Shown: piece after piece, positions 22,391 through 59,385 of the stretch
Layout of the letters: the number at the start of each line of letters is the position of its first letter
Numbering within the stretch: the first letter of the stretch is position 1
Assembly (NCBI GenBank): GCA_003024785.1
Contig: PUQB01000923.1
Span: 1-64,000, forward strand
DNA: 64,000 nucleotides
Source: Selaginella tamariscina
Taxonomy: Eukaryota > Streptophyta > Lycopodiopsida > Selaginellales > Selaginellaceae
Direction: 5' to 3'
Notes under the pieces: generated by a model
The model's input: only the letters and a program-made list of their open reading frames with translations
The model's database searches: none
What the model was told of the DNA's origin: nothing
Made by a program: the position numbers and the translations under genes

Positions 22391-22421
22391 ATGAAATGTG
22401 TAGGTTTTCTCATTAGGTTCA

Positions 22422-24927: not shown

Positions 24928-24975
<48 letters not shown>

Positions 24976-25337
24976 TGCATATGTGTATGTATAGGTTACA
25001 CACACACATATATGTATGCATGTGTGAATACATTCATGTCACATTCATATGTATACTTGTGCATCTATATTATATAAGATTTGTGTTTGTTTGTAGATAA
25101 ACACTATAGTTTTTCTAAAGACACTATGTGCTTTTTTATATTTATTCCCATGCTGTTCTTCATCTCTTTGTCAACCATGAACCCTTTAGTTTTATATAAT
25201 TATGAAACTAACCTTTTAGTTTTTTATAACTCTTAAATTGGCCTTGAGTCGTTAATAAACTTAACAATACAAACATACACCCACACACACAGTTTGATAA
25301 TTATATAAAACTAAGTGTTAATTTAATAATTATATAT

Positions 25338-26686
25338 GAGAGGCATTGTCAGCAACCTGCACAAAAAACAGATGGCCCTGTTGAGAGTTCAGGTTCAGTG
25401 GAGGGATCTAGCTCAAATAGTGTACATGTGTCCTCAACATCAAATAAGCTTCCTCGTCATTTGCTTTTACAGATGGATAATTGTGCAGGCGAGAACAAAA
25501 ATAGGTAAATCATTTTACTTAAGGGTTTCTCAAGCTCATACTTACTTTTATTTTCTAGATATGTGCTAGCATACTTGTCAATGCTTGTTGCCAAAGGTGT
25601 GTTTGAAACAATCACGCTCAGTTTCCTTATGGTTGGTCACACTCATGAAGATATTGATGCGTTCTTCAGCAAGGTCTCCAACTCTACAAAAAGGACAAGT
25701 GCACTTACCTTACCGCATATGATGAATCTTTTTGAAAATTGCATCTCCAAAAAAAGTTGTGCTTTGCTTGTGACTGAGGTGCCAGACTTCAAAAAATTTC
25801 TCAAGGAGTATATAAAAGAAGGGAGTGATTCTTTAGTTGGTCACCTTGTGCCGCTACAATTTTTTTCTCCATACGAGATGGTATACCTATTATGCAGTAC
25901 AAGTTACGGCCATCAGAGCAGGAGTGGTTACCGAAAGAGGGCTTAATGCTCTTCAAAAGTGGAGAGGATGGAAAGCCACTTCTCCCAGAAGGACAACCAG
26001 ACCCTATTCCATTGAGTGCCCAGCTCAAGGAACAAGAGGTTATTATTGATGGCATCAAAAAATATGTGGCATGGGTTCAAAAATCGATGCCAAAGAATTC
26101 TGATAAGGCAACTGGTTACTCAGAACTATATAAGCATGTGGTCAACTATTGGGAGACTGTTGTTCGAGAGTTGGAAGGGCCTACTGTCACAAGTACAGAA
26201 TTGCAACACCCTTTCTGGCCTAAAACAAGGTGGCGAGAGGAGATTGAAATGACATCACTGAGCATAGACGACATAGAAGCCAGTAGTGATGTGGAAGTGC
26301 AAACCCCACACTTTGTTGGACAAAGGAACCAAAAACCTAAAGCATACTTTGATTGCTGCAAGGATCTTCAAAAACTAATGATGGTTCTCATTACTCCAGA
26401 TGCGTCATATAATCAGCCTATTTGGATGGGTCAAATTATCGACACACCTGAAGTAATCACAAAAAATAGTATTGTTAAGGTTGCATGGTTCAAACCACAA
26501 AAAAGGCGACACGAGAAGGAGAGCGAAAGATATAATGGATGCCTAGAGAAAACATGGTCTCCCAATCAAAAAGACCCAGCATGTTTTATAAATGTTAAAT
26601 CCATTCGATATGGGTGGATGTCAAGAAGCGTTGATAAAGTCACGATTAACAAAACTGCAAGGGAATGTATGTTTTCTGAAGCTTAA
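25338..26686 (+). CDS. DUF7869-type candidate transposase, C-terminal half
   Basis: The first exon fragment (25338-25504) reads ...LPRHLLLQMDNCAGENKNR, and a 54-bp GT/AG intron (25505-25558) leads to YVLAYLSMLVAKGVFETITL and then FLMVGHTHEDIDAFFSKVS. Asp in MDNC..ENKN and the HTHEDID box are the signature residues of DUF7869. With IHDKMDHSKT in the N-terminal half they resemble the D, D and E/D positions of an RNase H-fold transposase. The frame changes once in a T run near 25860. After that a 264-residue frame (from 25892, MQYKLRPSEQEWLPKEG) continues to the stop at 26686. The N-terminal half is at 28935-30711 on the opposite strand; the two halves were separated by inversion and their cut edges agree in frame (ATW-E / RHCQQ). 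Biochemical function is inferred, since DUF7869 is uncharacterised. Confidence 0.75.
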
Positions 26687-27166
26687 AGCAATTACAAAAT
26701 TATAAAATATCATATATTTAATATTCATAATTATTATAAACTCTTTAATAATAGTACCAAATTGTATACTTAACTATATAAATTTAAAAAATGATATGGA
26801 AGATTGACTATATTATTATAGGATTTTATATATATATTATTACTACTACAAATTTTTAATTAATAATGTTATATTTAAATATTAATATTTTAATAACAAC
26901 ATCAATATTTATATAATGTACCTCTTATGCTCTTCCTTAATTGTTATATTAGGCAATATATTATATAATTTAATACATTCTACTTTTATAATGTTATTAA
27001 TTTTTGTTCAATGAATGCTATAATTTATTAAAGGGTAGAATACAAAATAGAATATTCTAAAGAATATTCTCTTTTCAAATATATATTCTAAAGAATATTC
27101 CTTTAATATTAGAAAATGCTAATTAAATAGCTAAAATTGCTAATTATTAGGAAATGGGACTATAGC

Positions 27167-27192
27167 CATGCCCATTTTAGTTACACTTGCAT
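27167..27192. repeat. Terminal inverted repeat, left end of the 20-kb element
   Basis: Reading inward (minus strand) it starts ATGCAAGTGTAACTAAAATG and continues GGCATG. The right end (46984-47010) starts ATGCACGTTGTAACTAAAGT and continues GGGCATG. They agree over 26/27 bp with two mismatches and one gap. Confidence 0.85.
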
Positions 27193-27197
27193 ATTTA
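27193..27197. other. Target-site duplication TAAAT (left copy, shown inverted as ATTTA)
   Basis: Directly abuts the TIR. The matching copy is at 47011-47015 and the single unoccupied copy at 59381-59385. Confidence 0.85.
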
Positions 27198-27542
27198 GAC
27201 ATCAGTAACATTGTGTCGGTAAATAAACCATTATAATGTTATAAATGTCCTATAAGTTTACTTAAACAAGAAGTATCTTGTTCTAAAAGACATTCATTTT
27301 AAACAAAATAAAAGATTGTTTTGTATTAACGAAAGAATGTACTTTTAGTCAGTGACTCTGTTCGATTGAAAAAAGTCTTCCACAATTACTTAAAATTAAT
27401 TAAAATTAGGTTTTTTCTTATTGTAATTCAGCTGACAAAGAATATTCTGCTGTCTCTTTTGTCAAACTCATTTTTACCTTTTCAAATTTTTTTACATTTT
27501 TCTAGTACAGTGAAAGTGAAGCTTGTGAGTGAGACTGTGAGA

Positions 27543-27728
27543 ATGGCAGACAGTGACATCGATGTGAGGCAGTATTGTGTATTCAGGAACAATGTTTACT
27601 ACTGCAAGCATTGTGATCACTGCTATGATCAATATTTTAGGCCTCAACAAGTAATCAAACACATCGTGAAAACTCACCCATATCTTAGAAAGAAATGTAA
27701 CGCTTCAGGAGCTGAAAGGAAGTTGTAG
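27543..27728 (+). pseudogene. Small C2H2-like zinc-finger protein (truncated copy)
   Basis: ATG at 27543 opens MADSDIDVRQYCVFRNNVYY, followed by CKHCDHCYDQYFRPQQVIKH and IVKTHPYLRKK. The Cys pair (CKHC) and His pair (KHIVKTHP) form a plausible C2H2/BED-like finger. The frame ends early (ERKL-stop). The paralogue at 58.74-59.04 kb still has the expected downstream codons: AVVEQPEQNPGL followed by RRSTRPSKKRRLS and a stop, a strongly basic nuclear-localisation-type tail. A few missing bases therefore cut the tail off here. The 20-kb transposon inserted about 350 bp upstream of this start codon, in the presumed promoter. Function unknown. Confidence 0.5.
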
Positions 27729-28934
27729 TGGAGCAGCCTGAACAAAATCCGGGGTTGAGACGGTCCACAAGGCCATCCAAAAAACGTAGGCTTTCCTGAA
27801 CATGTTTGTAATTTCATTTGTAATTTAATTATTAAAAATTGATCACTCACACCAGAATATCCAATTATCCTTTATAGAATATAACAAAGAATATAATACA
27901 GAACATTCTATAGTAGATTACTTGGTAATATGAAAGCAAATTTGCTTTCAAACCACTGTTCGGTCACAAATTTAATTACAACTGAATTCACAGCTTTTAG
28001 TACGGTTATCTACAGCTTGAACAAATCTTGCACATGTGAAAAAATATTTAGAGTTGCTCATCAAGAACAAAAAGGATTTTACAAAACGAGTTGTTTATAC
28101 CATGATTTTAATAGAAAACTAGTTAGATCGCTAAGATAATGAAATAATAATTAACATTACTGTTGAATCTATGTTCATTTGAAAGCTCATTCTCCTCCTT
28201 TTGAGCCATTGTGGAGTCGATGCAATTGTAAAATGGACAACAAATGCACTACAAATCTGAAGCAATCAAAGACAAGACATGGATTTATAGAATCCTTAAT
28301 GGTGAAACCACAATAGCAAAATATATAGAAACTTCAATCAAAGACCCAATCCAATCACAAATCCCAATGGCAAAATTAAGAAAAACAATGGCAGATTCCA
28401 TAAAACCCAATTAATAAAATCAATGAATCAATGAAAACTCAAACAAAAAAACCTAAATAATGAATCAATTGTAAAAGTCTATGGAAAACCCCAATGTACT
28501 GAAAATGAATAGAAACTCTTTGAAAAACCTGCTACTACAGAAACTCTCAATATGTGAAATCCAAAATGCATATATTTATCAAATTGACCCTCTAGTTTTA
28601 TTAATTATCAAATTAGTCTTCAATTTCTTATTAGATCATGCATGCAATATTTTTAAGTTAAAATATATAATACAAATGATACATATGTTATTTATAATGC
28701 CAAAATTTGTGTGTGAGGATGTATGTGTGTGTATTATTAAGCTCAAGGCCAATTTAAGAAATATATAAAATTAGGTGGTCAATTTGATAATATAATGTAT
28801 ATATTATATATACATATGTATATATACATACATAATTACTCTAGTTTTATATAATTATCAATTTGTGAATGTTTAATTTGATAATTATATAATGTATATA
28901 TTATATATGTAGATATGTATACATACATACATAT

Positions 28935-30711
28935 TCCCAAGTAGCCTCAAGTGCAGACGTGTTCATGAGAGCATTATGTAAAGGTTGAAGGTGTTGTTTC
29001 TTCACTTTGAGATCACTAATAGGACTTGTCTGTGAGTGGGCTTCAAGGTTTCTGAAACACATGGCTAACGACCCAATAGTGAAATTGGAGTCGCTAGACC
29101 AATGTGGAAGTGAAAAGTGTCCATATGACTCACAACCGTGTCCATGTGTTAGCACACCTGTTAAAGAAATCGGAAGTTTCATGACATTTCCAAGGCACTT
29201 TGGTGTTGCAAAGAGCTTTGGAATGCTGGTCTTTGAATGATCCATCTTGTCATGGATCAAGCACAGGTACTCTGATGGGTGTGATACAGAAAGCATGCGG
29301 TGTGCATAGTACTGAGACCGACAAGTTTGTTGTGCAATCATGTGGGCCTCCATCTTCCTTTGAATGGTAGTGATCTCCACCAAGGTTTTTGCACAAGCCT
29401 CTGCAGCCTTCAATGATGTACAAGTGTCACACTTAGAAAAGCTAGAGTGTTTTGCAATCTCCACATCCTTAAAATGAGTATTCCATATGTTGTTGAAGGT
29501 ACCAGTGTAGATTGCTTGGAGCCCCATCAAACTGAGGCACTTGTTCACATGTTCACACAGTTTCAATTGAGTGTAGATTGAAGGTAAAACCTTGAGATTT
29601 TCCCTGACCCCTGCATTTGTGGTTCGGCATTTGTGAGGCATCCTGTCTGCATTTGCTTCCACAAAAGCCTTGAGTATCTCTATGGCTGCCATGATGTGAG
29701 GAGCGGGTTTTGACCAAGCCAGTGTTCCCATGAACTGAGGTTCGCGCTCCATCTAGCCACTCATCCCTCCGACGGTAGAACGTGGTCTTTGGGATCCCGT
29801 ATATACTGTACCAAGCTTTGAAGCAGATGGCCACCTTATTAAATACCATGGATGTACTCTGATAACCTGTGTCCGAGGCCATTCCATCAATACACCCAGT
29901 TAGTGCAGCATATACAAACTCATGCCTTTGCTTTTGGGTGAGCATACGAAAGACATGTCTACATTGGGTAATTTCATTCCGGTCTGCCATCTGACAACAC
30001 TTCTTCTTGCAACAGTCAATCGTGGAAATGCTCGTAACACTTTCGGAAGATGTAGGATCCATCTTTACCCTCTTGCTGAAACTTGCAGGGGAAGATCTAC
30101 AACCCATGAATCGCCTTTTTCTTACAATAGGACCAATGCAAGGAACCTCTTCAAATATGAGTTGTTCTTCCGGGTTGTTATTATTGAAATCCAACCCAGA
30201 ATATGTTGAACCATCTTGCCGTCTTAATTCAGATGTTCGCCACCTCACGAGGGATCCAGGATACAATGTGCCATTAGGTGAAACCTCTGTCACAACTACA
30301 CCCACGAAGTCGGACCCTAGTTTCTCTTCTGACACTGCTTCCATTGGATTTATAGCTGTGATGATGCCTCTTCCGACTTCAATCTCACGAAGAAAGAGAA
30401 TCACCTCATCCATACAGCAGGCAAGCCATCATCTGGTAAACTCGTGCTACTATTTGTTTGTGACTCTGCATATTTGTGTCAGCCTTGACTTCATCCAAAT
30501 TCCACAATACAGGAGAACCCTCCTCAAATTCCATTCCCAGAACCTCAACATGCTTGTAAATGGTGTTCACCCATACGTACACACAAGATCCTTGGGAAAT
30601 ATTGTGACATGATGCATTATTATCTCGAACTTCCACAGTTCCAGTGCCAACTATCTCGTTGTTCCGAAGAAGACATACTTTATCTCCAGTATTAAACATA
30701 TTGTCCTGCAC
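28935..30711 (-). CDS. DUF7869-type candidate transposase, N-terminal half
   Basis: Starts at ATG 30711 (MQDNMFNTGDKVCLLRNNEI), just below palindrome array 1. Domain order: a beta-rich N-terminal region with GSPVLWNLDEV, then PGSLVRWRTSELRRQDGSTY, a Cys-rich linker, a helix-turn-helix-like segment (WYSIYGIPKTTFYRRRDEWL) with the family's HGN box (SVHGNTG), FNNIWNTHF, FSKCDTCTSLKAAE, and HPSEYLCLIHDKMDHSKT with the presumed first catalytic Asp, then LTGVLTHGHGCESYGHF. The coding frame changes twice, near 30410 and near 29755, so this copy is probably inactive unless these are assembly errors. At 28935 it is cut by the inversion; the remaining third is at 25338-26686 on the plus strand. Confidence 0.75.
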
Positions 30712-30849
30712 ATAAATAATTGTATTATTTATGATATCTGTTTATGCAATATTTTTAAGAAATCTGAATTACGGTTACTTAATAATATGCATATGCAATA
30801 ATACATAATTATGTTTAGAGATAATATCTCATGTTTGATTAATACAACT

Positions 30850-31770
30850 GATGGGCGGGATTAATCCCGCCCACGAATCCCTCCGACGAGGAACGGTCGG
30901 CGGGATTAATCCCGCCGCCGACTCAACCCCTTCGGAGAGAGTCGGCGGGATTAATCCCGCCTTGGACTCCCTCCGACAAGGAAGAGCCGGCGGGATTAAT
31001 CCCGCCGCCTCTTCCTCCTCGGGGGAGTCCGGCGGGATTAATCCCGCCGACTCTCTCCGACGAGGAAGGGAGTCCGGCGGGATTAATCCCGCCGCCGACT
31101 CAACTTCGGAAGAGTCGGCGGGATTAATCCCGCCTTGGACTCCCTCCGACAAGGAAGAGCCGGCGGGATTAATCCCGCCGCCTCTTCCTCCTCGGGGGAG
31201 TCCGGCGGGATTAATCCCGCCGACTCTCCGACGAGGAAGGGAGTCCGGCGGGATTAATCCCGCCGACTCTTCCTCGCCGGAGGAGAGTCGGCGGGATTAA
31301 TCCCGCCGGACTCCCTTCCTCGTCGGAGGAAGAGGCGGCGGGATTAATCCCGCCGGCTCTTCCTTGTCGGAGGGAGTCCAAGGCGGGATTAATTCCCGCC
31401 CACAATTCTTACGACGGGGAATGGGTGGCGGGATTAAACCCGCACATAACTCTCTCCAAAACTATGATTTCAAAGAGATCTCGGGATAAATCCTGTCCCC
31501 AAATCTTTAAAACAGGGAAGTGGTGGCGAGATTAATCCCGCCACCCCTTCCCTGCCTCCTAAAATGGTTGGCGGGATTAATCCCGCCGACAACTCTTTCT
31601 AATAAATTCTGGTAACTCTTCATCAGTTGAGAAGGTTATCGACGGGATTAATCCCGCCACTCTTTTTCAGTGGCGGAGAAGCATTGCCCGGGAGATGGTG
31701 GCGGGATTAATCCCGCCACTTCTTCAAAGAGGCGAAAAAGAAATGGCCGGATTAATCCCGCCGCCCCGGT
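30850..31770. repeat. Palindrome array 1: about nineteen units of GGCGGGATTAATCCCGCC
   Basis: An 18-bp perfect palindrome recurs about every 39-48 bp, with GC-rich spacers such as GACTCCCTCCGACAAGGAAG. Most of the first twelve units are perfect and later ones degenerate (GGCGAGATTAATCCCGCC, GACGGGATTAATCCCGCC). The spacers repeat directly and in reverse complement: the CTTGGACTCCCTCCGACAAG spacer occurs twice on the plus strand and once inverted near 31365-31383. Much of 30.94-31.40 kb is therefore itself one long imperfect inverted repeat. The array lies immediately upstream of the DUF7869 start codon. The DNA is open in several frames on both strands (GGINPA/AGLIPP) only because of the repeat. 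Confidence 0.95.
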
Positions 31771-31779
31771 TAACCTAGA

Positions 31780-32415
31780 ATATTAAGTTAAAAGGATATT
31801 TAAACGTGATAAATCCCTAACGGAATATATTATAATCCTAATGCATTTCTAAACCCCTAAATTGTAATTTTAAGAGAGAATGTAAGAGAGTGAATCTTAA
31901 TAAGTATTTTTAAATTTGTTTATAATACTTACTTGTAAACAGCACTGAAGGCGCCGTGCTTTCCTATAAAGAATAGCACCCAATTTAATCTCGCTCCTGA
32001 GATGATCACTATGAAGAAAAAAGAAGATCTAAAGAGTGAAAAATACAGAAATGAAGAAACCCTTGCCGGAGAAAGAACCAGATCTGAATTTGAGTGGGAA
32101 ATTAAATGCATTTTCAAATTTACATGTCAGACCGACAATACATATGTCAGAAATTCAAATTTTTTAAAAAGAACAGAAAATAAAATTTAAGATGAGTTGA
32201 CACAAATATCCGACACTCTGACATATATACTCTCCAGTTCCAATGAGTATTTTAAAATTGCATTTAATGTTATTCAAGTGATTCAAGCTGTTTAATATTA
32301 CGAAATTTTAGACTATATTCTACATTCTTAGTATTCAAGTATATTTATATTATATATATATATATAAATATATACTTATACAATAAATAAATTGATATAT
32401 TATTATGTATCATTT
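31780..32415. other. AT-rich spacer within the element
   Basis: No gene recognised; a 62-codon frame on each strand near 32.0 kb looks like chance. Confidence 0.5.
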
Positions 32416-32419
32416 AAAA

Positions 32420-33060: not shown

Positions 33061-33369
33061 CATATATTATTATGTATAATTTAAAATATGTTCCTAGTGT
33101 GTTTATTAATTTTATTTTCTTAATTATTCGATGTTTGTTTTGCACACATATATAAACACAATCATAAATTTACACACGCATTACAAGAACTTACAAAAAC
33201 ACATATGCACACACATGCACAACCCTAAACCAAACTGAAGAAATAGGTTGCTTCTTTATTGAAAACATCATGTTCAACGCATGTATGATATATGTACTCA
33301 ATCTGTGTGACTGTATGTAACACATTGAATTTACATGTGTAATATTTATATTAAGCTTGTTGGGAGCAA

Positions 33370-33397
33370 ACCCTAAACCCTAAACCCTAAACCCTAA
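33370..33397 (+). repeat. Interstitial telomere repeat, four CCCTAAA units
   Basis: AACCCTAAACCCTAAACCCT continues without mismatch for four heptamers. A matching patch lies at 38769-38796 on the other side of the nested retrotransposon. Confidence 0.95.
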
Positions 33398-33479
33398 TAT
33401 GTAACACAATGAATTTACTCATGTAATATGTATGTATGTCTGTGTGTATACACGTGTGCATGTATATATGTGTACTCTG

Positions 33480-33686
33480 TATGTATATATGTGTACTTTC
33501 TGTCTTCTCTCATACATACACACCATGCATGATCCATGTTAATATGTACTGTCTCTCTTCTCTCAAACATACACACCATGCATGATCTATAATATGTACT
33601 CGGTCTCTCTAATATTATGTACTAATATGTATGTATGTCTGTGTGTATAATACACACCATGCATGATCCATAATATGTACTGTCTC
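33480..33686. repeat. Dispersed CTCTCTTCTCTC...CATGCATGATCC repeat zone
   Basis: Short units containing ACATACACACCATGCATGAT and TAATATGTACT recur here, at 38619-38765 and at 61980-62240. The nested gypsy element split one such zone. Confidence 0.75.
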
Positions 33687-33892
33687 TGAAAGAGCAGATA
33701 TATTAAATGAAAATCTGATATATTAGTTTACAAAAAACCCTGCTTATATACAGAAGGTCTCCTGCCACGTGGCACACATGCGACACGTGGCGCTGACACA
33801 TGGGGGCCAGATCACCACCCATGTGTCACTACGCATGTGCGTATATACACATGCGTATATACGGTACGTTACCTAATATACAGTATCTTACA
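33687..33892 (-). repeat. 3' LTR of the nested gypsy element
   Basis: 206 bp, near-identical to 38417-38619. Contains the palindromic stretch CACATGCGTATATACGG near its outer end. Confidence 0.95.
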
Positions 33893-36800
33893 CTATCCTC
33901 CCCTCTGCGGCTGTGTAGATGGTGATGGATCTGATGGTCCTGGATCCGTGTGAGTTGGGCCATCTAAGGTATGACCAAATGTACTCAACGAGTCTCGAAC
34001 GACAAACCGTTTCATTCGAACCACGTGAACTATCTCAACCTCATGAGATCCCACCAACTTTACTTGATATACCTGAGGACCAACCTTTCGGAGTACTCGG
34101 TAGGACCAAGCCACTTGTGTAATAAACCAGTTGCAAGCCCAGGTGCAGTCAGCTTGGGAAAACGTACCAGGACTAAGTCACCGTCAGCAAAATCTGGTGG
34201 AATTTGATGTCGTGTATTGTAAGAAGATTGCTGCCGCATTTGAGCTCGACCAAAGATGTTCAGCAGACTCTGCACGTAGAAGAGGCAAAACAGCATCCAA
34301 ATGTCGACCCACATCTTTGCATCCTCGGCACGTGGCAGATTCGATGATAACCCCAATTCACTAGGCAACTTAGGATCATATCCATACAATGCCTTGAATG
34401 GAGAGATACCAATCGAACTCTGAATGCCTGTTACATAAGCAAATCTCAAACATCGCAAATACCAATCCCAGTCCGTGTGATTGAAGTTCACATACTTCGA
34501 GATCATACCCTTGAAGGTCCGATTCAAGCGCTCCACCAAACCATCAGTTTGTGGATGATACGGAGAGGCAAATGAATGTTTTTACCCCTAACCTCTCACA
34601 CAACACTCGGAATACCTCTGCAATGAAAGCGGGGCCATTGTCTGATAACATCCGCTCTGGACAAGAATGCTGCAAAACCACATTATCGAACAGAAACAAA
34701 GCTGTTGACATGGCAGTTGCATCCGGAAGAGCACCAACCTCCACCCATCGAGTTAAATAATCAGATACAACAATGATGTACTGGTTACCTTGAGAAGAAC
34801 GTGGAAAAGGTCCCATTAAATCCACTGCAATTAACTCAAAAGGGCGAGAGACATTGATGGATTCCAACACCCCATGGCCCGAGTCGTAGAGGAATTCCGA
34901 GTTTGACAAGTGGGACAACTTTGAATATACCTGATCACATCACCACGCATGCTGGCCAATAAAATGATCGGCGCAGCTTCTCCAACACTCGTTGGTGACC
35001 AAGATGACCTCCAACAATAGGTGAATCATGATATGCTCGAAGAAGGTGTGGAACATATGTAGAGGGTACAGCCAAACGCCATCTGTCCTCTGGATTTGTC
35101 CCAATAAAATACAATAAACCATCCTGAAGTCGAAACTGAGCATGATATTGTCGAAACCGAGGTTCGGAAGACGGATTGCAAACGCATCGCGTAATTGCCT
35201 CGTCCATGGTTCATGTTTTTGAGCATCCTGCCACTGTTCCAAGGATGGTAAGTCGGCATCGAATACCTGAGGGGCTTGTATCAAACCGAATGCTGCAGCT
35301 ACTGCATGAGCAGGCAAAGTGGAATCGGAGAGGGGTGCTCGAGAAAGTGCATCCGCATCCACCATTGTTCGCCCAGGCCTGTGCACCACCTTAAAGTTAT
35401 ATACCTGGAGACGTAATGCCCATCTGGCTACGCGACCCACTAAATTCTTCCGTTTTAATAAGGAAGTGACAGCAGCATGATCACACTCCAAAAGTGTTTC
35501 ACTCCCATGTAAGTAGGCATGAAGTCGTTCAAAACCCCAAACAGCAGCAAGGCATTCTTTTTCAGTAGTGGAATAATTCCGCTCAGCCGGCGTGAGTACT
35601 CGACTAATGTAAGCCACCGGGTGTCGAATTGAAGAATCCACAGCATCAGTTTGCATCAATACACCACCAATACCAACATCTGAGGCATCTACTCGTAAAA
35701 TGAACGGACGAGTAAAATCTGGGTATTGAAGCAATGGTGGAGTTGTCAGGAACTCTTTTAACTGGTCAAATGCCTGCTGACACCTGCGAGTCCACCTGAA
35801 AGATACCTGTGGACGAACTAACTCCCGAAGAGGGGCAGTTCGATCAGTGAGATGATCGATGAATCGACCCAAGTACTGCACCGTGCCCAAGAAACGCTGG
35901 ACTTCCTGTACTGTACGGGGACGAGGGAACTCTCGAACAGCTCGCAACTTCATTGGATCCACCTGTAAACCCTCTCGAGATATACGGTAACCCAAGTAAG
36001 TGGTGTCGGTCGAACCAAACACACACTTTTCAAGTTTCAACTTCAGGCCAACTTCTCGAAATCGATCAAGAACGCGCCGTACATCACGAATGTGATCCTC
36101 CCAAGAACCAGACCCATGAATGAGCACATCGTCGATAAAATCGGCAGTGATATCAGGCATATCGGAAAGAAGCTCATCCATCATGCGTTGAAAGGTGGCA
36201 GGAGCTGAAGTCAATCCAAAAGGCATGACCAAAAACTCGTAAAGACCAAATGGTGTCCGGAAGGCCGTTTTTGGAATATCCTCCTCAGCCATAGGAACCT
36301 GCCAATATCCTGATGCCAAATCCAACTTAGTAAACCATCGACTCTGACCCAAACGATCTAATAGATCGGCAGAGTTCGGAAGTGGATAGACATCTTTGAT
36401 GGTAACATCGTTAAGAGGTCGGTAATCCACACAAAATCGGAGAGATCCATCAGGCTTGGGAACCAAATGAGGTTCACATGCCCATGGACTCCGTGACGGA
36501 CGACACACTCGTTTACCAATCATATCAGTAACAGCTGTTCGCATGGCTGATAACTCCTTTGGTGACCTGCGTCGAACCGGGACTTTGAAAGGCTTTGCAT
36601 TGCCGGTGGGTATACAGTGTCGAGTCTTCACACGTGCACCTTGGGACAGATCAAATTTGAACAAACTTGCATACTGTTTCTTAAGTTGTTCGATGCAGTG
36701 TGCTCGACACTCAGGTGACGGATCCGGCATTTGAACCTGTTGAGATGAACACCACCCAAGACCGGAATCAAAGGAGCTGTATGCGTGATACAAACAGCAA

Positions 36801-38416
36801 CAAGCTTCTCTGGACGTAAAGGAACAGACTGCAAAGACACAGACTCCAAGCGTAATACAGGAGGAGAGAGTGAAAAATCACATGTACCTTTCGACTGCTT
36901 TAACCAATCACATCCCAGAATGATGTCAAAGACCTGGGAAGGGACAACCCTAAGAGACCCAGAGGGAAACTTACAGTTGGCACCCATAACCAGCGTAGTC
37001 GAAGTGGTGTACTGTGATACTGCACGAGACTGCCCATTACCATATAAAATGTGCAAGACCTTATCTGCTCGTCTCAAGGGTAATGAGCACCGATGCGCCA
37101 GAGAAGTAGTTATGGAAGACATACTAGATCCTGTATCCACAAGTACTGTGACTGAAACATCATTCACCGTGCAGAAAATGTGAAAACTGGATGATTTGGT
37201 GGAACTTGCAAACCCTTGATATGCATAGCGAAAAAACATGGAGGTGAGTTTCCATCGCACGGGATCCCTCCGTCGCCCGTACGATTACTGGTTTTCCGCA
37301 ACAGATCCACCCGCAAGAGAGCGTCATCATCTGGAAGCTCATCATCAGACATAATGGCCGCCACAGGTACACCATCCGGAACATATGGTCGCCAGCCTGG
37401 ATGTGGTGGACGCCAATCAGGATACACATCGCATGCCCGCCAAGTATGTCCAGGTGCCCAACAGGCCCAACAATGAACTTGATTGGGTCGACCTGCATTG
37501 TTCCGATTCCTCCTGTCACGAATCCGTGGATTTTGACCACCACGGGCAGGAACTGGAGCAGGTGCAGGACGATTTCGTGGAGGTGGTCCACGGGGTGGGC
37601 CCCGAGGTCGACCACGAAAGGCTTGTCGTGCGGGCACATATGCAGCAGCATCAACCTCCATTGGATCAGCACGCTGAACAAGAGGAGCAGGTAACCCAAG
37701 GGGAACACGGCCCTCACCAGGCACCAACTCAAAACGTTGAGCTAGTGCAAAAGCTTCCTCCAATGTGGTAGGACGAAGAGCCCGAACGAATCGAACAAGT
37801 TCGGGTCGCATAGTTGGCCATAACATACCGAGCTTAATAGGCTCAGGCATGTTAGGATATGCACGCCGAACTAAATCCCCGAACCTAATACTGAACCGCA
37901 TAACAGACTCACCAGGATGTTGTCGTATCGCATGCAGTTGTTGGAAAGCATCATCTGAATCCTCAACTTTGCCAAACGTACGTTTGAGGCATTCCGTTAA
38001 CCGATTACTATTGGCTTGAATCTCCGCAGCCAATCCATTATACCACTTGAGCGCAGGGCCTTCCAAACATGTAGGGAATTCTCTGAGAGCACGGGCCTCA
38101 TCCCAACCATGGTAACGAACAATGACTTGGAAATGATCAAACCAGTGGTATACATCATCTCCCGGATCACCACAAAAAGATCGGGGTCGAACCCTCGGAT
38201 TTGTGGCCTGTGAAGAAGATGAAGGAGTACTAGAAGCAGATCCCCCGGCATGAGGCTCAGACGGGGAAGAGGAGGACGGACCCTCAACAAGCGCTCCAAC
38301 AACTTAGTTTGTGCATCAATAGCAGTAGCAATAATGCTAAAAGCCGTCTCCATGTTCATTGTCATGGAAAAAAAAAAAGAAAAGCGGAAGAAAGGAATAC
38401 CCAACTTCTCCACCAA

Positions 38417-38619
38417 TGAAAGAGCAGATATATTAAATGAAAATCTGATATATTAGTTTACAAAAACCCTGCTTATATACAGGAGGTCTCCTGCCACGTG
38501 GCACACATGCGACACGTGGCGCTGACACATGGGGGCCAGATCACCACCCATGTGTCACTACGCATGTGTATATACACATGCGTATATACGGTACGTTACC
38601 TAATATACAGTATCTTACA
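38417..38619 (-). repeat. 5' LTR of the nested gypsy element
   Basis: 203 bp, near-identical to the 33687-33892 LTR. The primer-binding region lies just inside, below 38417 (TTGGTGGAGAAG on the minus strand), and is not the usual initiator-Met type. Confidence 0.95.
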
Positions 38620-38768
38620 CTCTCTTCTCTCATATACTATGTATGTATATCTGTGTATAATATGTGTAAGTATATATGTGTACTAATATATGCAATGTGT
38701 ACAAAAATAATTTTTCAACACTCTCTCTTCTCTCATACATACACACCATGCATGATCCATCCTAAATC

Positions 38769-38796
38769 CAAAACCCTAAACCCTAAACCCTAAACC
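38769..38796 (+). repeat. Interstitial telomere repeat
   Basis: Four CCCTAAA-type units, as at 33370-33397. Confidence 0.95.
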
Positions 38797-38939
38797 CATG
38801 TAATATGTGTGTATGTCTGTGTGTATACACGTGTGTATGTATATATTATGTGTATTAATATATGCAATGTGTATGTATGTATTGATACACATGAAACTTT
38901 AACACTCTCATGGACACACACATGTTAAATCCCTGCATG

Positions 38940-39180
38940 ATTTATATTTTTGAGGTGTATGTGATACACCCACGCACACGCACGCGCTAATAATAATATG
39001 AAAGAATATTCGTTTAGGGCGAATCTATATTTTATTCTTTTTAGGGTTTAAGTATATTCTCAGAAGGAATATTCTATTAGGGTTGATAATATATATTTAA
39101 TTCCTTTAGGGTTTAGGTATATTCTTAGGGTTTCAAGAGGCGGCGGCTGTGAAATCGGCGGCGGCGGCTGTCCACACAGG
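38940..39180. repeat. AT-rich TTTAGGGTTT/GGCGGC block, first copy
   Basis: GAGGTGTATGTGATACACCC, then several TTTAGGGTTTA and AGAATATTC motifs, then a GGCGGCGGCGGCTG run. The same succession recurs at 62360-62620. Confidence 0.8.
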
Positions 39181-39189
39181 TGAGATCTG

Positions 39190-39456
39190 TGTGTGTGTTG
39201 TGTTGTATGTATGTATATATGTATAGGAGTGTGCGTATAATTTTATTTATTAGTTTTATCTCTCGCACACACACGCACACTCCTGTGTATGTATATGTGT
39301 GTGTGGGTGTGTTTTTTATCTGTATGATTTTATTTGTTTCGCTCACACACGCATACACACGATATACATATACACATATATATATATACCTATATACATA
39401 TATACATACATATATTATGTGTACCAGTTTCTGTAAATTTTTTTTATTGATCTTGC

Positions 39457-39507
<51 letters not shown>

Positions 39508-39571
39508 TATGTGTACCAGTATCTGTAAATTTTTTTTATTGATCTATCTCTCCCACACACACGCGCACTGC

Positions 39572-39613
<42 letters not shown>

Positions 39614-40270
39614 CAACACTAGTTTTATATATGCTTATATATTTCATATGGGTTATATATCTATAACACACATATATATATGTGTGTTTTTCTGTATAAT
39701 TTTATTTATTTATTAGTTTTATCTCTCGCACACACACGCACACTCCTGTATGTATATGTGTGTGTGTGTGTGTGTTTGTTTATCTGTATGATTTTATTGT
39801 TTCGCTCACACACGCATACACACAATATACATATACACATATATATATATACCTATATACATATATACATACATACAACACTATATATATGCTTATATAT
39901 TCACAGACTCTCTCTCTTTCTCTATAGATTATATCTATATACACACATATATATGTTGTGTTTATCTGTATAATTTTATTTATTTATTAGTTTTATCTTT
40001 CGCACACACACCACACTCCTGTGTATATATATATGTGTGTGTGTGTGTTTGTTATCTGTATGATTTTATTTGTTTCGCTCAACGCATACACACGATATAC
40101 ATATACACACATATAATACCTATGTACACACATATATTAGGTGTACCAGTACTGTATAATTTTATTTATTTATCTATCTCTTGCACACACACGTACACTC
40201 CTATACATACATGCATACATACATATATATACACACACACATATATATGTGTGTGTGTTTTTATCTCGCT
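39190..40270. repeat. Microsatellite-rich tandem units (CA/GT/TA)
   Basis: A unit of about 300-450 bp is repeated three times: TCTGTATAATTTTATTTATT, TCTCGCACACACACGCACAC, TGTATGTATATGTGTGTG, GATATACATATACACATATA. It embeds pure CA and TA tracts. A related single copy lies at 62770-63120. The reading frames across it are artefacts. Confidence 0.85.
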
Positions 40271-40282
40271 AAGCCCCTCGAG

Positions 40283-41845
40283 CGGCGGGATTAATCCCGC
40301 CGCTATATAGTTGGGGCCATGGCGGCGGGATTAATCCGCCGCCGAGGCCCTTCAGGCATGGGTGAGCGGCGGGATTAATCCCGCCGCTCATCCATGCCCT
40401 GCGCGGAATGCGGCGGGATTTATCTCGCCGGCAATGGCCTGTGTGAAGGTTCTAATGGGCGGGATTTATCTCGCCGGCAATGGCCTGTGTGAAGGTTCTA
40501 ATGGGCGGGATTAATCCCGCCGGATTCCGTGCAGGGCATTTAGAGGGAATGGGCGGCGGGATTAATCCCGCCGCCGAGGCCCCTCACGCAGGCCATGGGC
40601 GGCGGGATTAATCCCGCCGCTCTTCGGTTTGTCGTAGAGCGGCGGGATTAATCCCGCCGCCCAGGGAATTCACGCAGGACATGAACGCCGGGATTAATCC
40701 GGCCCCACGCTCATGCCCTTCGCGGAGGGCGGCGGGATTAATCCCGCCGTTCATGTCCTGCGTGAATTCCCTGGGCGGCGGGATTAATCCCGCCCCCACC
40801 CATCCCTGTTCAAAAATGCCGCAGCCAATATATATGTGTGAGCGCATGATTTACGAGAGGGCGGCGGGATTAGCCGCCGAACCTTCATTACCCGGTGGCG
40901 AGATTAATCTCCGAACCTTCATTATCCCATTGGTATGTTGAATCAATCCCGCCTAACTCTGTCTGAGACGGAGAAGGTTTACAAAATACCAATGGAGGGA
41001 ACCGAGAAGGGTGGTGGGATTAATTTCACCATCCCTTACATGGTGGGCGGGATTAATCCCGCCGTGTACGCATGCCCTGCGCGGAATCGGGCGGGATTTA
41101 TCCCGCCGCCATTGGCCTGCCTGAAGGGCCTAGGCGGCGGGATTAATCCCGCAAGATTTCGCACAGGGCCTGGAGGCGGGATTATCCCGCGGCCAATGTT
41201 GCGAAATCGGCGGGATTATCCGCCGCCATTGCCTGCCTAAGGCCTAGGCGGCGGGATTAATCCCGCTCGCGGGCGGGAGGCGGGATTATCGCCGACGCAA
41301 TGCCCTGGCGAATCGGGCGGGATTATCCCGCCGCCATTGGCCTGCCTGAAGTGCCTAGGCGGCGGATTAATCCCGCCCGATTCCGCGCAGGGAATTGGCG
41401 TCCGGCGGGATTAATCCCGCCGCATAGGGACGAGTGAAGGCCCTGGGCGGCGGGATTAATCCCGCCGAGTCTTCAATGCCTGTTGGAGAATGAATCTCGC
41501 CACCCTTCCCTTTTTCTCCATTGGTGAGTTGGACCAATCCCAAACGTTTCTGTCTAGACGTAGAAGGTTTACAACATACCAATGGAGGACTGGGAAGGGT
41601 GGCGAGATTCATTTAACCATCCCTTACATGGTGGGCGAGATTAATCCCGCCTCCTTTCTGGAGTCACTGAAGGGGTGTGAGAAATAAATCCTGCCCAGTT
41701 CTCTCTGAGACCGAGAAGGGTGGCAAGATTAATTCCGCACTCCCGTTCAAGGCCTCCAGAAAGGTGGCGAGATTAATCCCGCCCACTCTTTCAGGAGGCA
41801 TTGAAGGGGTGGCGAGATTAATCCCGCCGCACCTTCCATGTGAAT
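40283..41845. repeat. Palindrome array 2: roughly thirty GGCGGGATTAATCCCGCC-type units
   Basis: Same 18-bp palindrome as array 1 but with different spacers (for example CCATGCCCTGCGCGGAAT, TGGCCTGCCTGAAG). Perfect units alternate with variants such as GGCGGGATTTATCTCGCC and GGCGAGATTAATCCCGCC, and spacing is about 40-60 bp. It ends about 330 bp before the ParB/methyltransferase-like start codon, mirroring the position of array 1 upstream of DUF7869. Confidence 0.95.
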
Positions 41846-41942
41846 ATATATGTGTATTAGTATATATAAGTTGCATATCTCATTTTATTTACTTTTATCA
41901 TCTTATCATAATATTTCGAGTAAAAGCTAGGAATCTATGTAA

Positions 41943-42029
41943 AACTGTCCAGAGCTCACATTTGTGGTGGTTCTAAAACGAAATGTTATCTTTCTTTTGC
42001 ACTAACACAAATGTGAGCTTCGGACAGTT
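41943..42029. promoter_or_regulatory. Hairpin with 24-bp arms upstream of the ParB-like gene
   Basis: AACTGTCCAGAGCTCACATT (41943 onward) and its inverted partner ending at 42029 pair over 22 of 24 positions around a loop of 39 bases. It lies between palindrome array 2 and the gene, in probable promoter or 5' UTR DNA; a TTTTGCAG acceptor (42131 region) suggests a 5' UTR intron after it. Confidence 0.6.
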
Positions 42030-42171
42030 AATTACGTCTACTTCTCTCTGTGTATTATTTTTGTATATTCGGGTTTATACAAGTGTGTGTGCGTTTTTAT
42101 ATAATTTATATTTATAGTGTATTATTTTGCAGAAGGACGATTTGATCAAACAAGGAGATCGAGTCATTAGT

Positions 42172-45100
42172 ATGGAGTCGTCGTCAAATTCTGGGTAAGA
42201 ATTAAAATAAAATCTGTTATACTCGGATACTTGAACTAATCATTTTTGTATTCAGATGTGGAATTGAGGTGACATTAAAGACAAGAGCAGGAGAAGAGAT
42301 GGGCAGGGGGATTCTGGAATCAACTTGGCCATATTTTAAGATAAATGGGAAGCGCATTGGAGCAACCATGGTTGCTGTCAAATTAACCTCTGTCACATCT
42401 CATGGACAAGCAAAACAATGGAAAGTTGATTCGCTAGTCAAGCACCCGAAAGCAGGCTGCGAACCCAGATTGGACGATGCTCGACAGATATGCCTTGTTC
42501 CATCCAATGTCACGTTCTCGGATCCAGAGGTCGTCAGTTACAACATTAATCTCGGGTGGTTTTGTCGACTTGTGGATAATGACGTTCACGTGTTCACTAA
42601 TGATGTTGACCTTGGAGTTCTTCTTCAACTCAACGAAAGCCCATCTATGGAGGGGATCCATCTGGATGTCTACTTCGAAGATCTTCAGACTCATCGAGTA
42701 GGTGTATTGTCAGGAGATATTGCTTCACAATACAGAAAATCAGCAAGTGGAGCAATCTTCCCTCTTGACATTGAAGAAGAACACAGCGACATCATAAGGG
42801 AGATTGAGAAGGTGGCTCGGTCTCAGGTTCTCTACAGATCACGTTCAATTTGCTTAGGAAGCTTCGGGAGCTGGAGAGTGTGCCGAGAACACTAGAACAG
42901 CTGCAGTCGGGGATCACACATGTTGATTCGGATCGCAAAAGAAAATCATCAATCGTTTTGTCAGCTGCACCTGTGGCATCTCATGCTGCAATAAGTCACA
43001 AGGAAATGATGTTGGATGATAAGATTTATCCTTGTAGGGTTAAATATTGCAGCGTCAACCCAAACTTCAATTACAGGCCACTCAACCAGGAACGTGTAGC
43101 TGAGCTCATGGAGAAGATGAAGGACGACAATTCTTATACCGTTCCACATAATGCTGTTTTGTGTCCATACTATGAAAGAAGGAAGGGTGCTGACAAAGTC
43201 TGGATCACAACACCAGAACAACTCATGAAGATTCAGACGGAGAATAAAAGATCTATCAAGTACTACATCATTAGTGGCCAGCACACAATAACGGCAGCCC
43301 AACGACTTCTCGATGAACACAACAAAGGAACGATGGCAACAAAACTTTCCGAGCATACCCGTGAGAAGCTGACAAAAAGATCGGCGTTTTTAGCTAAGCC
43401 GAATCTCACAATCGAGCAGTACCATAAGTTATCGGCGGAATGGGACGCTGCCGACACCAACCACTACAACAGCAAAATATGGGAGAAGTTTAAACACACG
43501 CGAGCCGTGTGGGAATCTCTTCAGCGACCACAAAGAGCTACCGCAGGGAATACACAATCTGCGGAATACCGGGTAAGCAAATTGTTTGGGCGGGATTTAT
43601 CTCGCCGGTATATTAATCTGTCTTTTTCCTCAGAGAGTTGAAGAAATTGCAGCAGTTGATTTTGCCCAGGTGGGCGGGAAGGAAACATCATTTCTGATGA
43701 TGTTGATTTCTTGCCCCGAAGATAGGATCTTTGCCAAATGGTTGGGGATTATGGAATCCTTTTCAAAAGGAACACTGAAGAAGAAGCAGACAAGTGAAGG
43801 GGAGCCCTCAGAAAAGTCTGCAAAGAAACCCAGTAAGACGCCGAAGGCTAAGTCTGTTCAATCTACAAAGGATGTAGACAACGATTTCAAGCTCACATGG
43901 TTGAAGCCTTTAAATGGAACAACGATGGAGGAGATGGAAGTCTTGGCTGATTTGGTGATCGATGGCAAACTACAAATTAATAACAGCAGCCCAACCTCTC
44001 CTTTTCATCTCAAGGCAATGGAGTTGAAGACGGTCAGGCATTTCAAGGAGTGGTTGGGAATACACTGCCACAAACTGGGTTGGACCTCGACTTCAACATA
44101 TGAAGAGGTTAGCAAATATTTGCATGTGACGAACGATGATATGCTTGTCGAATGGGTGAACCAATCGGAAGATCTAGGCAAGAATCTATTGCACGCCAAC
44201 GCCAAAAAGGAGAACATTGGGATGACGCCTTCTCTTATGGCAGTCCTTCAGCAGCGGAGAACCGAATTGAACCTTATAAAGGAGGATGCTACGAATCACG
44301 ACAAGCCCTACAGATGTTTGTTGTTAGATTCGGAGACTTTATGGGGTAACATCACTGCTTGTAGGAAACCGTTTCAATTGTTCGTGATGGATCGGCGGGT
44401 GTCAAAAAATCTTTCGACAGATAGGGCACTAGAGGATCTGGTGGAGAAACTTAGCCGTGCAAGCATATACATAGAAGGTATTTATTATTGAATTCATGCT
44501 TGCGCTCTTCACTGATACCTACTTTTTCAGGTATTTATTTCTTGATTCTTGCTCATGTCACCGATACTTTTGCCTTCGCCTTCGCCAAGAAGAATAGACA
44601 TCGTTGGACAGGATTTTATATGAACGATGCTAATCCCAAGTGCATTGATACTGTTGTTCACTTGGTTGTTAGGAATGCGCCAAACAATTTCAAGCTTCCA
44701 AATGACTGGCCAGGCATCTGTTTGCACTCCAACGGCCCTGAACCTCCATCCGATACACCGATAGGTATGAGTGACGTATTCGGCAATGTACGTTATCCAA
44801 ACATTACAAGTCAAGCGGCACGGAGCATCGTCAACTTGATCAGGGGTCCTCACAGTGATGCGTGGGTTTTTGACTACTGCACTAGGGGGTCCGTCTTGAA
44901 GGAGTGTTACCTTCGGCATACATGTGTGTTTGCCGTTGAGAAGGATAAGACCATGGTTGAGGACCTGAACAAGTGGATAGATTGGGTCTCAACTGAGTAC
45001 CCCAACGAATCCATAAAGGCGTATTTGAGAAAGTTCCCTCCAGATAAGTGCGATAGCTCTGAAGGTGAATCTGGTTCAATCTCGGAGTCTGAGAACGAAC

Positions 45101-45276
45101 ATCAATCAGATATTAGACCGGAAGTTATCTCGAGGAGTACAGAACATTCGCACACTCCAGGACCCATGGAAACATCAATAGAAGATGCAGAAGATCTTGA
45201 ACCATCTCACAAGCGGCTTAGACCTTCTTCGCCTCATTCAGAAGGTAATAGCGAAGAAGAATTGATAATGAATTGA
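42172..45276 (+). CDS. ParB-like / DNA-methyltransferase-like protein
   Basis: Exons: 42172-42194, 42256-43572, 43634-44477 and 44531 to either the stop at 45276 or a donor at 45245. The introns are only 61, 61 and 53 bp, all GT/AG with matching phases. An N-terminal region (GIEVTLKTRAGEEMGRG...) of unknown fold precedes a ParB/sulfiredoxin-like domain (exon 2) with NYRPLNQERVAELMEKM and the hallmark KYYIISGQHTITAAQRLLDE. Exons 3-4 resemble a beta-class N4/N6 DNA methyltransferase, where the catalytic block precedes the SAM block: PFQLFVMDRRVSKNLSTDRA at the DPPY position, YFLILAHVTDTFAFAFAKKN, RWTGFYMNDANP, and later AWVFDYCTRGSVLKECYLR with CVFAVEKDK at the FxGxG/SAM position. DPPY is replaced by DRRV, so catalysis is doubtful. 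One frame change occurs near 42840. ParB-methylase fusions are known in phages and bacteria; a plant transposon gene of this type is unusual. Confidence 0.7.
43588..43608. repeat. Palindrome unit inside intron 2 of the ParB-like gene
   Basis: GGGCGGGATTTATCTCGCCGG lies within the 61-bp intron; its core GGGCGGGATTTATCTCGCCG also occurs in array 2 near 40.46-40.48 kb. The intron cannot hold much else besides its splice signals. Confidence 0.9.
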
Positions 45277-45346
45277 TAGAGTGATGAATAGTTGTAAATG
45301 AGTGTAACATAAGGCATTTTTGTATATTTCTTTTATATTTGTACAG

Positions 45347-46722
45347 AAAATAAATTCTCAAGGATTAATGAAGCTTTTAGTTCAAACATGGGTCACACAT
45401 TAACAAGGTAAATAATATACCTTGATAATTTTAAGGTCAGCTAATTATCATTTTGCAGATGTAATGAAATAATTGAGAACATGGATTTTCAGCATTGCCA
45501 TGAGGTAAGAGAGGGGTTTGGCGACAATTTCTTGTGCCACATGTCAGAATGACAGAGTTCATGCAGGAAATGGATAATAATGCAGCTCAAAACATCGTTA
45601 CCATGGGGGCCACTTCAGTTTTTGCATCATTTTTATTGGCTTCAGTTCCGAAATCAATTTCTTCAGCGCATGCAATATCTGAATCTTGTAAGGATGATGT
45701 ACAATTAAATGATGAAGGGATAGGCAACGAAATAGTGGCAACGGATAAATGTGAAAGGGAGCAAACAAGTGATTTGCAAAGTATTCAAGAGGCAACGCTA
45801 TCTCATGTTACTCATGGCCATATTGTGTTGTTGGATGTCAATGGTGTTCTGCTTCATCGACAAAGGCCCGAGGATAGAAAAACAGAAATCAAACAAGGAG
45901 ATTTCATTCCTTGTCATGGTAAATTTCGATATGATATTATTTTTCGTCCAGGGTTGGATCGTCTCTTTCAAAAGCTTAAGGAGATGGGTGCGCTTGTGGG
46001 GATTTGGTCATGCATGCAGATTCATAACTTAACACCGCTGTTGAGTTTACTTAAGAAACATTGTAGTGTTGCAGAAGAGGTGATTCGTAAAGATTGGATT
46101 TTTGACCAGCGAATGTGTCATAAACCTCTCGAATTTCACAATATAAGAAAGGAAAGCAAGCCATACTTCTTCAAGAATGAAAGAATAATTGGGACTCATG
46201 GGGAGGATCAGTCGCTTAAGGATAACGAAGAATGCACATATCTTAGTAGTAGACGACTCTCCTCAGAAGGCTATGCTCAACCAAAACATTGCTTGTATTC
46301 ATCCAATCACTTTCGATCCATATTCTGATATCGATATCATGGATGAGCTAGTGAACTACTTGGATACGTGCCTCAGAAAGAAGAATCTCGAAAATTTTTG
46401 TGAGCAGTATCCACCGTATCATACATTTCCTGAAGCTTTTCTTTCTCGTGATATTGAATTTTATAAAATGAAGGATAGCAACCGGGCGCTTTATAATATT
46501 ATTCTTAAGGAACGTCAGTTTTTAGATGAGCCTTTATGCAGACCTTCTCTTATCACATCTTATGTATTAACAAGGATGGCAACTCCCAATTGCATTCGTG
46601 AGAGTGTTAAGTGGTGGCAACAACATCAAGATATTGACCAAAATGATTTGATTAATCCGGAGAGTGATGATTTAGACAAAATGAAAAGATTTCTTTGTAT
46701 GATAGAAAGAAAGTATTTATAA
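45347..46722 (+). CDS. FCP1/NLI-type HAD phosphatase domain, probably spliced to the upstream gene
   Basis: Exons 45347-45407 and 45459-45504 (FSRINEAFSSNMGHTLTR, CNEIIENMDFQHCHE) join in phase, via a 53-bp intron (45505-45557), to 45558 onward (FMQEMDNNAAQN). The main exon has HAD motif I as HIVLLDVNGVLLH, then FRPGLDRLFQKLKEMGALVG with IWSCM, then WIFDQRMCHKPL, and finally motif III as ILVVDDSPQKAMLNQN. This matches plant NLI-interacting-factor-like phosphatases; the second Asp of the usual DxDx(T/V) motif is Asn. The frame shifts once between about 46190 and 46250. The first exon starts in phase 1 and fits the donor at 45245 of the methyltransferase-like gene, so both may be one protein: ParB, methyltransferase-like, HAD. 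The stop is 290 bp from the right TIR. Confidence 0.65.
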
Positions 46723-46983
46723 AAAATTAACATGTTGATAAGAAAATGATTTCATTTGTAATTATGTTTGATAGTATTTCTTCATTATTGTAAACTATTT
46801 TTAGAATAATATGAATATTCTAAGATATTTTAGGAATATTCCTTACTAAGTAAGGTTATTGAAGGATTAATTAATTAATTAATTAATATTTAAGGCTTAA
46901 TTACATATTAATTAAATGATTAATTAATAATTAAAACTTAAGTATTAATTAGTAATTTATTTTATATTCCCATTTTCACGTAT

Positions 46984-47010
46984 CATGCCCACTTTAGTTA
47001 CAACGTGCAT
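46984..47010. repeat. Terminal inverted repeat, right end of the 20-kb element
   Basis: Reading inward (minus strand) ATGCACGTTGTAACTAAAGT then GGGCATG; matches the left TIR at 27167-27192. Subterminal GAATATTC palindromes follow at about 46808-46842. Confidence 0.85.
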
Positions 47011-47015
47011 TAAAT
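47011..47015. other. Target-site duplication TAAAT (right copy)
   Basis: Abuts the right TIR and continues into TATTAGAATTTATTATTTAG-like flank, which is found directly after the empty site at 59381. Confidence 0.85.
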
Positions 47016-59380: not shown

Positions 59381-59385
59381 TAAAT
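59381..59385. other. Unoccupied target site of the 20-kb element (TAAAT)
   Basis: TTACTGATGTC-TAAAT-ATTAG: the left part equals the flank of the left TIR and the right part equals the flank of the right TIR, with a single TAAAT between. Confidence 0.9.

Follow-up and report, generated by a model that had tools for sequence, protein, structure and literature searches.

What is the roughly 20-kb segment that lies between inverted termini in a contig of Selaginella tamariscina, and what could have moved it there? The segment belongs to positions 1 to 64,000 of contig PUQB01000923.1 (assembly GCA_003024785.1), a stretch that we analysed at its full length of 64,000 bp and call the window. It carries three genes, here named A, B and C, and two arrays of a short palindrome. 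An earlier note on this DNA had proposed a DNA transposon of about 20 kb. We found that the segment is a genuine, young member of a family of DNA transposons with terminal inverted repeats (TIRs), and that the family was recently active. Overall, the best explanation, which we consider probable, is that the segment is one copy of a family of TIR DNA transposons, ~14.6 kb long and recently active, some copies of which look autonomous. It is very probable that the segment is a transposon and, jointly, that the DUF7869 protein of gene A acts as its transposase.

Ends, empty site and inversion at the window locus

The inverted termini with an adjoining TAAAT, and a single TAAAT at 59381, are all present in the sequence as the earlier note had described them (Table 1). 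An 18-bp core of the terminus, searched with up to 3 mismatches, matched the window twice (with 0 and 1 mismatch) when 0.08 matches were expected, and two matches were obtained in none of 100 shuffles of the window. Self-comparison revealed that the flanks of the element and the region at 53.9-61.7 kb are a direct duplication. The left flank (21666-25338 and, inverted, 28934-27191) matches 53886-59387, and the right flank (47011-49305) matches 59381-61692. The two sets of matches share only seven bases, TAAATAT.

The flanks differ from their paralogues at the empty site by 1.68% and 1.47% of positions. The window element is only 0.04-0.29% diverged from its nearest copies elsewhere in the genome, so an insertion after the duplication is the simpler order of events and the site at 59381 is most simply read as ancestral, as had been claimed. 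Precise excision would yield an identical single TAAAT, but a junction formed by excision or as a deletion scar is most improbable in view of this difference in divergence (1.5-1.7% against 0.04-0.29%), and no residual terminal bases were found at 59381. Older partial copies of the duplicated flank (~75-88%) also lie at 19550-25338 and 50440-57575 of the window, which makes the locus a small tandem array.

The left end is displaced by an inversion, and three observations bore out the single 3.6-kb event that had been suggested. The flank matches change orientation, with breakpoints near 25338 and 28934. The DUF7869 profile is split at the breakpoint, its positions 5-53 (25.6 bits, against a cut-off of 26) falling on one side and 75-164 (94.4 bits) on the other. 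Finally, C87, one of ten copies fetched whole from the host genome, is continuous through both breakpoints, and its identity to the window over these pieces is 97-99.5%. With the inversion undone, the segment measures 1,854 + 18,076 = 19,930 bp and is collinear with the other copies; its longer pieces align to C87 at 94-99.5% in a single order.

Two differences of structure separate the window copy from C87: the inversion, and the insertion of a Ty3/gypsy long terminal repeat (LTR) retrotransposon. Its gag, reverse transcriptase and RNase H matches are above the Pfam cut-offs and its integrase core match is below; its LTRs of ~205 bp are identical at 204 of 208 positions (98%). The window copy is longer than the ten fetched copies because of this nested element. 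The earlier size of ~20 kb thus describes the window segment correctly but not the transposon, since the ten copies measure 13.9-15.0 kb and ~4.9 kb of the segment is Ty3/gypsy sequence. The native element is ~14.6 kb long.

A young family in the host genome

The host assembly comprises 300.7 Mb in 1,391 contigs. The terminal motif ATGCANGNNGTAACTAAANTGGGCATG has 2,651 exact matches in it (1,354 forward and 1,297 reverse), and the reversed control had 0 and 0. Paired copies, which the earlier note had suggested looking for, were thus found in the host genome. From about 100 places listed, 20 end pairs (a forward and then a reverse end, at most ~33 kb apart) were chosen. Ten, spaced by about 14-15 kb, were fetched whole; from the other ten, which differ in length or share contigs with the first ten, 81-base end pieces were taken. 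The selection passed over a few longer pairs, those with 28-33 kb between the ends on C27 and C91 and one with 48 kb on C30. The whole elements range from 13,925 to 14,963 bp (C80 was measured from the inner of its two left ends, the one with the duplication), a range that is partly a matter of choice, as the copies were picked by spacing. The 27-bp ends are shared by all ten, and each copy aligns to C87 in a single order, C29 and C69 in more pieces. The numerous termini and the shared ends of these copies confirmed the proposed TIR transposon.

Divergence within the family is low. Over the right 5.1 kb, the window copy differs from C80 by 2 substitutions in 5,111 positions, from C84 and C87 by 5 each, and from C69 by up to 213. 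Over the left 3.8 kb, there are 8 substitutions in 3,778 positions against C80 and also against C84, 11 against C87 and up to 91 against C29. This amounts to 0.04-0.1% for C80, C84 and C87 on the right and 0.21-0.29% on the left. Among the ten copies themselves, the 45 pairwise divergences over the right 5 kb had a minimum of 0.08%, a median of 0.60% and a maximum of 4.5%.

The duplication of 5 bp proposed from the window was not the rule. Exact 4-bp duplications flank 10 of the 20 pairs (AAGA, ATTA, ATGT, TATC, GTAG, TAGA, CGTT, CTAT, TGGT and ATAA), when about 1 in 256 would be expected by chance for each pair. None of the 20 has a longer one, and the window copy, the 21st, is the 5-bp exception with its TAAAT. 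The other half of the pairs counts against the transposon explanation: one shares 3 bp and nine share nothing, and five of those without an exact duplication are the full-length copies C3, C7, C29, C69 and C87. Recombination between near-identical copies, or their joining in the assembly, may account for these pairs.

We estimated the family at ~1,250-1,325 element equivalents, from 27,128 palindromes at 21.7 per copy and from 2,651 termini divided by two, an estimate rather than a tally of elements. Were every one of them complete, the family would make up ~6% of a 300-Mb plant genome. Some copies have unusual structures. In L058, one copy seems to be inserted ~524 bases inside another (a terminus at 1780, a 524-bp left end and a second terminus at 2303). 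L056 (C84:1163-8234) is a 6.7-kb derivative, both ends of which begin with ATGCATG and resemble the left end; it has one array and no exact target duplication. C80 (L028/L029) has an additional right-type terminus 249 bp outside its duplication-bearing end.

The DUF7869 protein and known transposon systems

The earlier note had listed DUF7869 among the cargo. In our analysis, the exon 2 part of gene A matched PF25273 (DUF7869) with E 8.6e-27. The two exons of the gene comprise 646 and ~375 codons and are both open in two of the ten copies. At E ≤ 1e-3, gene A has 92 relatives, and every one of them carries PF25273. Named sources are few (liverwort, moss, sea anemone, molluscs and sea cucumber) and include Physcomitrium (the P. 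patens protein P0039) and Riccia. In 68 of the 92 homologues that were aligned, several acids are nearly invariant: D353 in 68, D195 in 67, D192, D393 and D395 in 66 each, and E/D392 in 65. They occur in the order of a hydrophobic stretch followed by D192xxD195, then LQxD353N and GHTH[E/D]D393xD395, and D353 and E392 are 39 residues apart in eight of the nine rows measured. Such a layout of acids is typical of RNase H-fold transposases. The third acid of the triad could be E392, D393 or D395, all of which are candidates. The host genome has at least 300 matches to PF25273 (from scoring 150 of 4,249 first-look candidates), and the 14 control genomes have none.

Gene A also seems to be under constraint. 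Across 11 copies including the window, 49 of 119 changes are synonymous when 32 were expected (P = 6e-4), in a test that assumes a transition weight, treats sites as independent and includes assembly base errors in its counts, as do the other synonymous tests below. The constraint lies in exon 1 (38 synonymous and 37 non-synonymous changes; 20.5 synonymous expected). The frame changes in the window copy were first taken as decay. Aligned to C80, C84 and C87, the right 5.1 kb of this copy has 2-5 substitutions alongside 10-15 gap openings, which makes assembly errors the probable source of many of the frame changes.

From these features, the DUF7869 protein would be an RNase H-fold D-D-[E/D] transposase, which would bind the termini and excise the element. 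Cut-and-paste transposition would then join the element to target strands 4 bp apart. Several results weigh against this role. The gene A frame is interrupted, through errors or decay, in eight of the ten copies and in the window copy. Exon 2 has no synonymous excess (11 synonymous and 33 non-synonymous changes). The DUF7869 profile gave five matches at chance level (E 0.21-7.3) to solved structures in the PDB, and no Pfam transposase was matched at E ≤ 10 in the 6 of 68 members scanned. The sole hint of a known transposase is a weak one, Transposase_23 (En/Spm TNP1) in the N-terminal part of gene A, with E 0.14 and 12.4 bits against a cut-off of 21.

DUF7869 is widespread among predicted proteins of plants and animals. 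Here it is placed inside an element with defined ends, a target duplication and an empty site, which suggests a function for a domain previously without one. Outside eukaryotes, 189 pattern stretches in viral contigs searched with the DUF7869 alignment held no relative. In bacterial and archaeal contigs, 57 stretches led to three loci, L001, L002 and L003, all on contigs of metagenome-assembled genomes (MAGs), and these are probably eukaryotic contamination. L001 is a 4.3-kb contig of a MAG named as cyanobacterial, with an uninterrupted 947-amino-acid frame related to DUF7869 proteins. L003 has a short match (51 residues, E 3e-6) and two palindrome pairs ~45 bp apart at 4989-5146.

To which known system does the element belong? 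Among those considered, Sola comes closest. Sola elements, as described in excerpts of the literature, encode a DDD transposase, have 4-bp duplications, measure mostly 2-9 kb and in some cases >15 kb, and occur in the moss P. patens (PMC10741241). Their TIRs are given as 11-1124 bp (PMC10741241, PMC9033089), and an excerpted bivalve library gives a mean Sola1 length of 5,445 bp (PMC10294476). The element studied here resembles these descriptions in its 4-bp duplication (10 of 20 pairs), its candidate transposase with a putative acid triad, its 27-bp TIR, its DUF7869 relative in moss and its large size. It differs in its three conserved genes and two palindrome arrays, which the excerpted Sola descriptions do not mention. 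On balance, we lean towards an oversized, three-gene member of Sola (Sola1-like, as in Physcomitrella), which would name the family within the transposon explanation. The match is one of reported features rather than of compared transposase sequences, and the third acid is one of three candidates. The element is thus best filed as a large multi-gene transposon that may work like Sola. The earlier note had found no superfamily that the cargo matched; the duplication, putative triad, moss occurrence and occasional sizes above 15 kb are nevertheless as reported for Sola in these excerpts.

An alternative is that DUF7869 elements form a superfamily of their own among eukaryotic DDE/D transposons, one that has yet to be described. 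The literature searched, with most subscription journals and Repbase outside its scope, yielded no paper on DUF7869 or PF25273, nor on the palindrome or the terminus; this and the lack of Pfam transposase matches in the six members scanned would agree with a separate superfamily. Sola may itself be without a Pfam model. The missing Pfam link is therefore a weak argument, the 4-bp duplication and the occurrence in moss fit Sola, and we regard a separate superfamily as unlikely. The element is probably not outside every known superfamily.

Other systems agreed less well. In an excerpted source, Ginger1 has 4-bp and Ginger2 has 4-5-bp duplications (PMC10045372). The 4-bp length is shared, but genes A-C have no integrase-type (rve) match, and the only one in the segment is that of the nested Ty3 element. 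Polinton/Maverick elements carry PolB, integrase and capsid genes. None of these domains was found in genes A-C, and the duplication here is 4 bp against 6 bp in the excerpted source (PMC10045372). CACTA, hAT, Mutator, PIF/Harbinger and Tc1/mariner were also rejected, since only DUF7869 reaches the cut-off in gene A and none of their transposase domains was matched in six relatives.

Palindrome arrays, genes B and C and remaining features

The palindrome arrays noted earlier are present as two arrays with 34-46 copies per element. The 18-bp palindrome GGCGGGATTAATCCCGCC has 27,128 perfect matches genome-wide, against 0 for the control; each of the ten copies has 12-28 exact sites and 34-46 with up to 3 mismatches. 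The arrays sit upstream of two divergent gene units. In C87, where most neighbouring palindromes are 38-51 bp apart, they begin at 3776, just upstream of the start of gene A, and at 7911, upstream of gene B. A lone palindrome also occurs near 11 kb in nine of the ten copies (not in C69); in the window it is at 43589, within an intron of gene B.

Gene B itself is conserved: 96 of 208 changes among the 11 copies are synonymous and 112 non-synonymous, when 56 synonymous changes were expected (P = 3e-9). Its product has no recognizable relative in the searches made. Pfam and PHROGs gave only sub-threshold, chance-like matches, the best being IL31 (E 0.12) and phrog_21535 (E 0.092), respectively. 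No match at E ≤ 10 was found among PDB sequences or in 50,697 phage records. A search of 5.8 billion proteins, which could reach only those sharing short words with the query, was likewise negative (residues 200-900 at E ≤ 1e-3 and 220-470 at E ≤ 10). A ParB/methyltransferase-like cargo was thus not supported, and a partition system of the ParB/parS type was rejected, as none of the Pfam, PHROGs, PDB, phage and protein searches gave a supporting ParB match for gene B. The HAD phosphatase was recovered in gene C as a NIF match; selection on this gene was not significant (9 synonymous and 15 non-synonymous changes). The conserved orphan gene B and the dyad arrays merit further attention.

What could the arrays do? 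They may be binding sites for a protein encoded by the element, gene B being the first candidate and gene A the second. Once bound, this protein would control the element's expression or protect it, much as VANC anti-silencing proteins do in VANDAL elements. According to an excerpted report, VANC proteins bind noncoding tandem-repeat regions and remove silent marks (PMC10398659). The likeness to that excerpt is that of a DNA transposon with a short motif repeated in its own noncoding DNA. The differences are that genes A-C have no MULE or VANC-related Pfam match and that the duplication is 4 bp here, compared with 7-12 bp in Mutator elements, as excerpted (PMC10741241). In favour of the model, the distant DUF7869 gene on contig L001 lies between copies of a different dyad. 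Six were counted on both sides of its frame at up to 4 mismatches and likewise at up to 5, the setting at which 100 first-order resampled sequences had none; this dyad was chosen from the data on which it was tested, and the case is single. Binding of the palindrome by an element protein is a proposal, and we put the model forward tentatively, as less likely than not.

The arrays might also be origin-like, structural or passively amplified tandem repeats rather than regulatory sites bound by a protein, a reading to which we give a little less than an even chance. Their copy number varies between elements (34-46), as in tandem repeats, and few compensatory symmetric changes occur among the palindrome variants listed. 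On the other hand, in the 364 sites that have no more than 2 mismatches, the dyad positions are 90-100% one base, against ~35-65% at neighbouring positions, a contrast favoured by the choice of sites for likeness to the dyad and by the near-identity of the copies. Two separate arrays, each upstream of a gene unit, also speak against this reading, as does the undepleted CpG of the arrays in C87: the observed/expected ratio is 1.17 and 1.04 in the arrays, 0.73 between them and 0.40, 0.74 and 0.69 in genes A, B and C, respectively. The flanks in the window have 0.56-0.62.

Binding by an element protein meets difficulties of its own. The CpG ratio is also 1.10 outside the arrays, in the 411 bases before gene B, and all of these C87 figures come from one copy and are raised by the CpGs within the repeated palindrome. 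A host factor, rather than a protein of the element, might also read the arrays.

The broadest version of the proposal is that DUF7869 defines its own DDE/D superfamily across plants and animals, with plant giants in which gene B, acting on ~40 palindromes upstream of both gene units, would keep the element expressed against host silencing, by a system that arose independently of VANC. We consider this doubtful. The family raises two questions that can be tested directly: do large transposons of land plants bring along anti-silencing or regulatory systems of their own, and is the palindrome read by the product of gene B?

Table 1. Coordinates of the transposon, its parts and associated features in the window
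Feature	Position	Strand	Remarks
Secondary inversion	25339..28934		~3.6 kb; breakpoints uncertain by ~5 bp; contains the left end of the element and 1.7 kb of flank
Gene A, end of exon 1 past the inversion breakpoint	25339..25504	+	Motif QMDN; exon end by eye
Gene A, exon 2, from the GHTHEDID motif to the stop	25559..26686	+	After a 54-base intron; splice sites by eye
Left TIR	27167..27192	-	26 bp in the window copy, against 27 bp in each of the ten copies fetched whole; moved by the inversion
Target-site duplication, left copy	27193..27197	-	TAAAT on the element strand
Gene A (candidate DUF7869 transposase), beginning of exon 1	28935..30699	-	From the proposed start codon
Array 1 of palindrome GGCGGGATTAATCCCGCC	30854..31762		19 sites, allowing up to 3 mismatches; immediately upstream of gene A
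Nested Ty3/gypsy LTR retrotransposon	33687..38621	-	~4.9 kb; not part of the transposon; absent from C87
Array 2 of palindrome GGCGGGATTAATCCCGCC	40284..41828		22 sites, allowing up to 3 mismatches; located upstream of gene B
Gene B, orphan protein of ~970 amino acids	42172..45276	+	Four proposed exons; synonymous excess between copies
Gene C, NIF/HAD-type phosphatase-like	45504..46722	+	PF03031, E 2.6e-8; exon structure provisional
Right TIR	46984..47010	-	27 bp
Target-site duplication, right copy	47011..47015	+	TAAAT
Paralogous empty site	59381..59385	+	One TAAAT with both flanks of the element

A diverged fragment of the element interior occupies 61702-64000 of the window. It matches 33173-41836, lies directly against the duplicated flank where that flank ends, and reaches the end of the window. 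No terminus was found in this fragment, which has eight palindrome sites and is without the Ty3 insertion; its older array, at 63.2-64 kb, has a CpG observed/expected ratio of 0.76. AAACCCT repeats, GT-AG introns, a frame near base 1000 of the window that we take to be class III peroxidase-like, and the hits from Physcomitrium and Riccia all suggest a land plant as host. A tandem duplication unrelated to the transposon links 2878-3788 and 6350-7253 at 77-82% identity.

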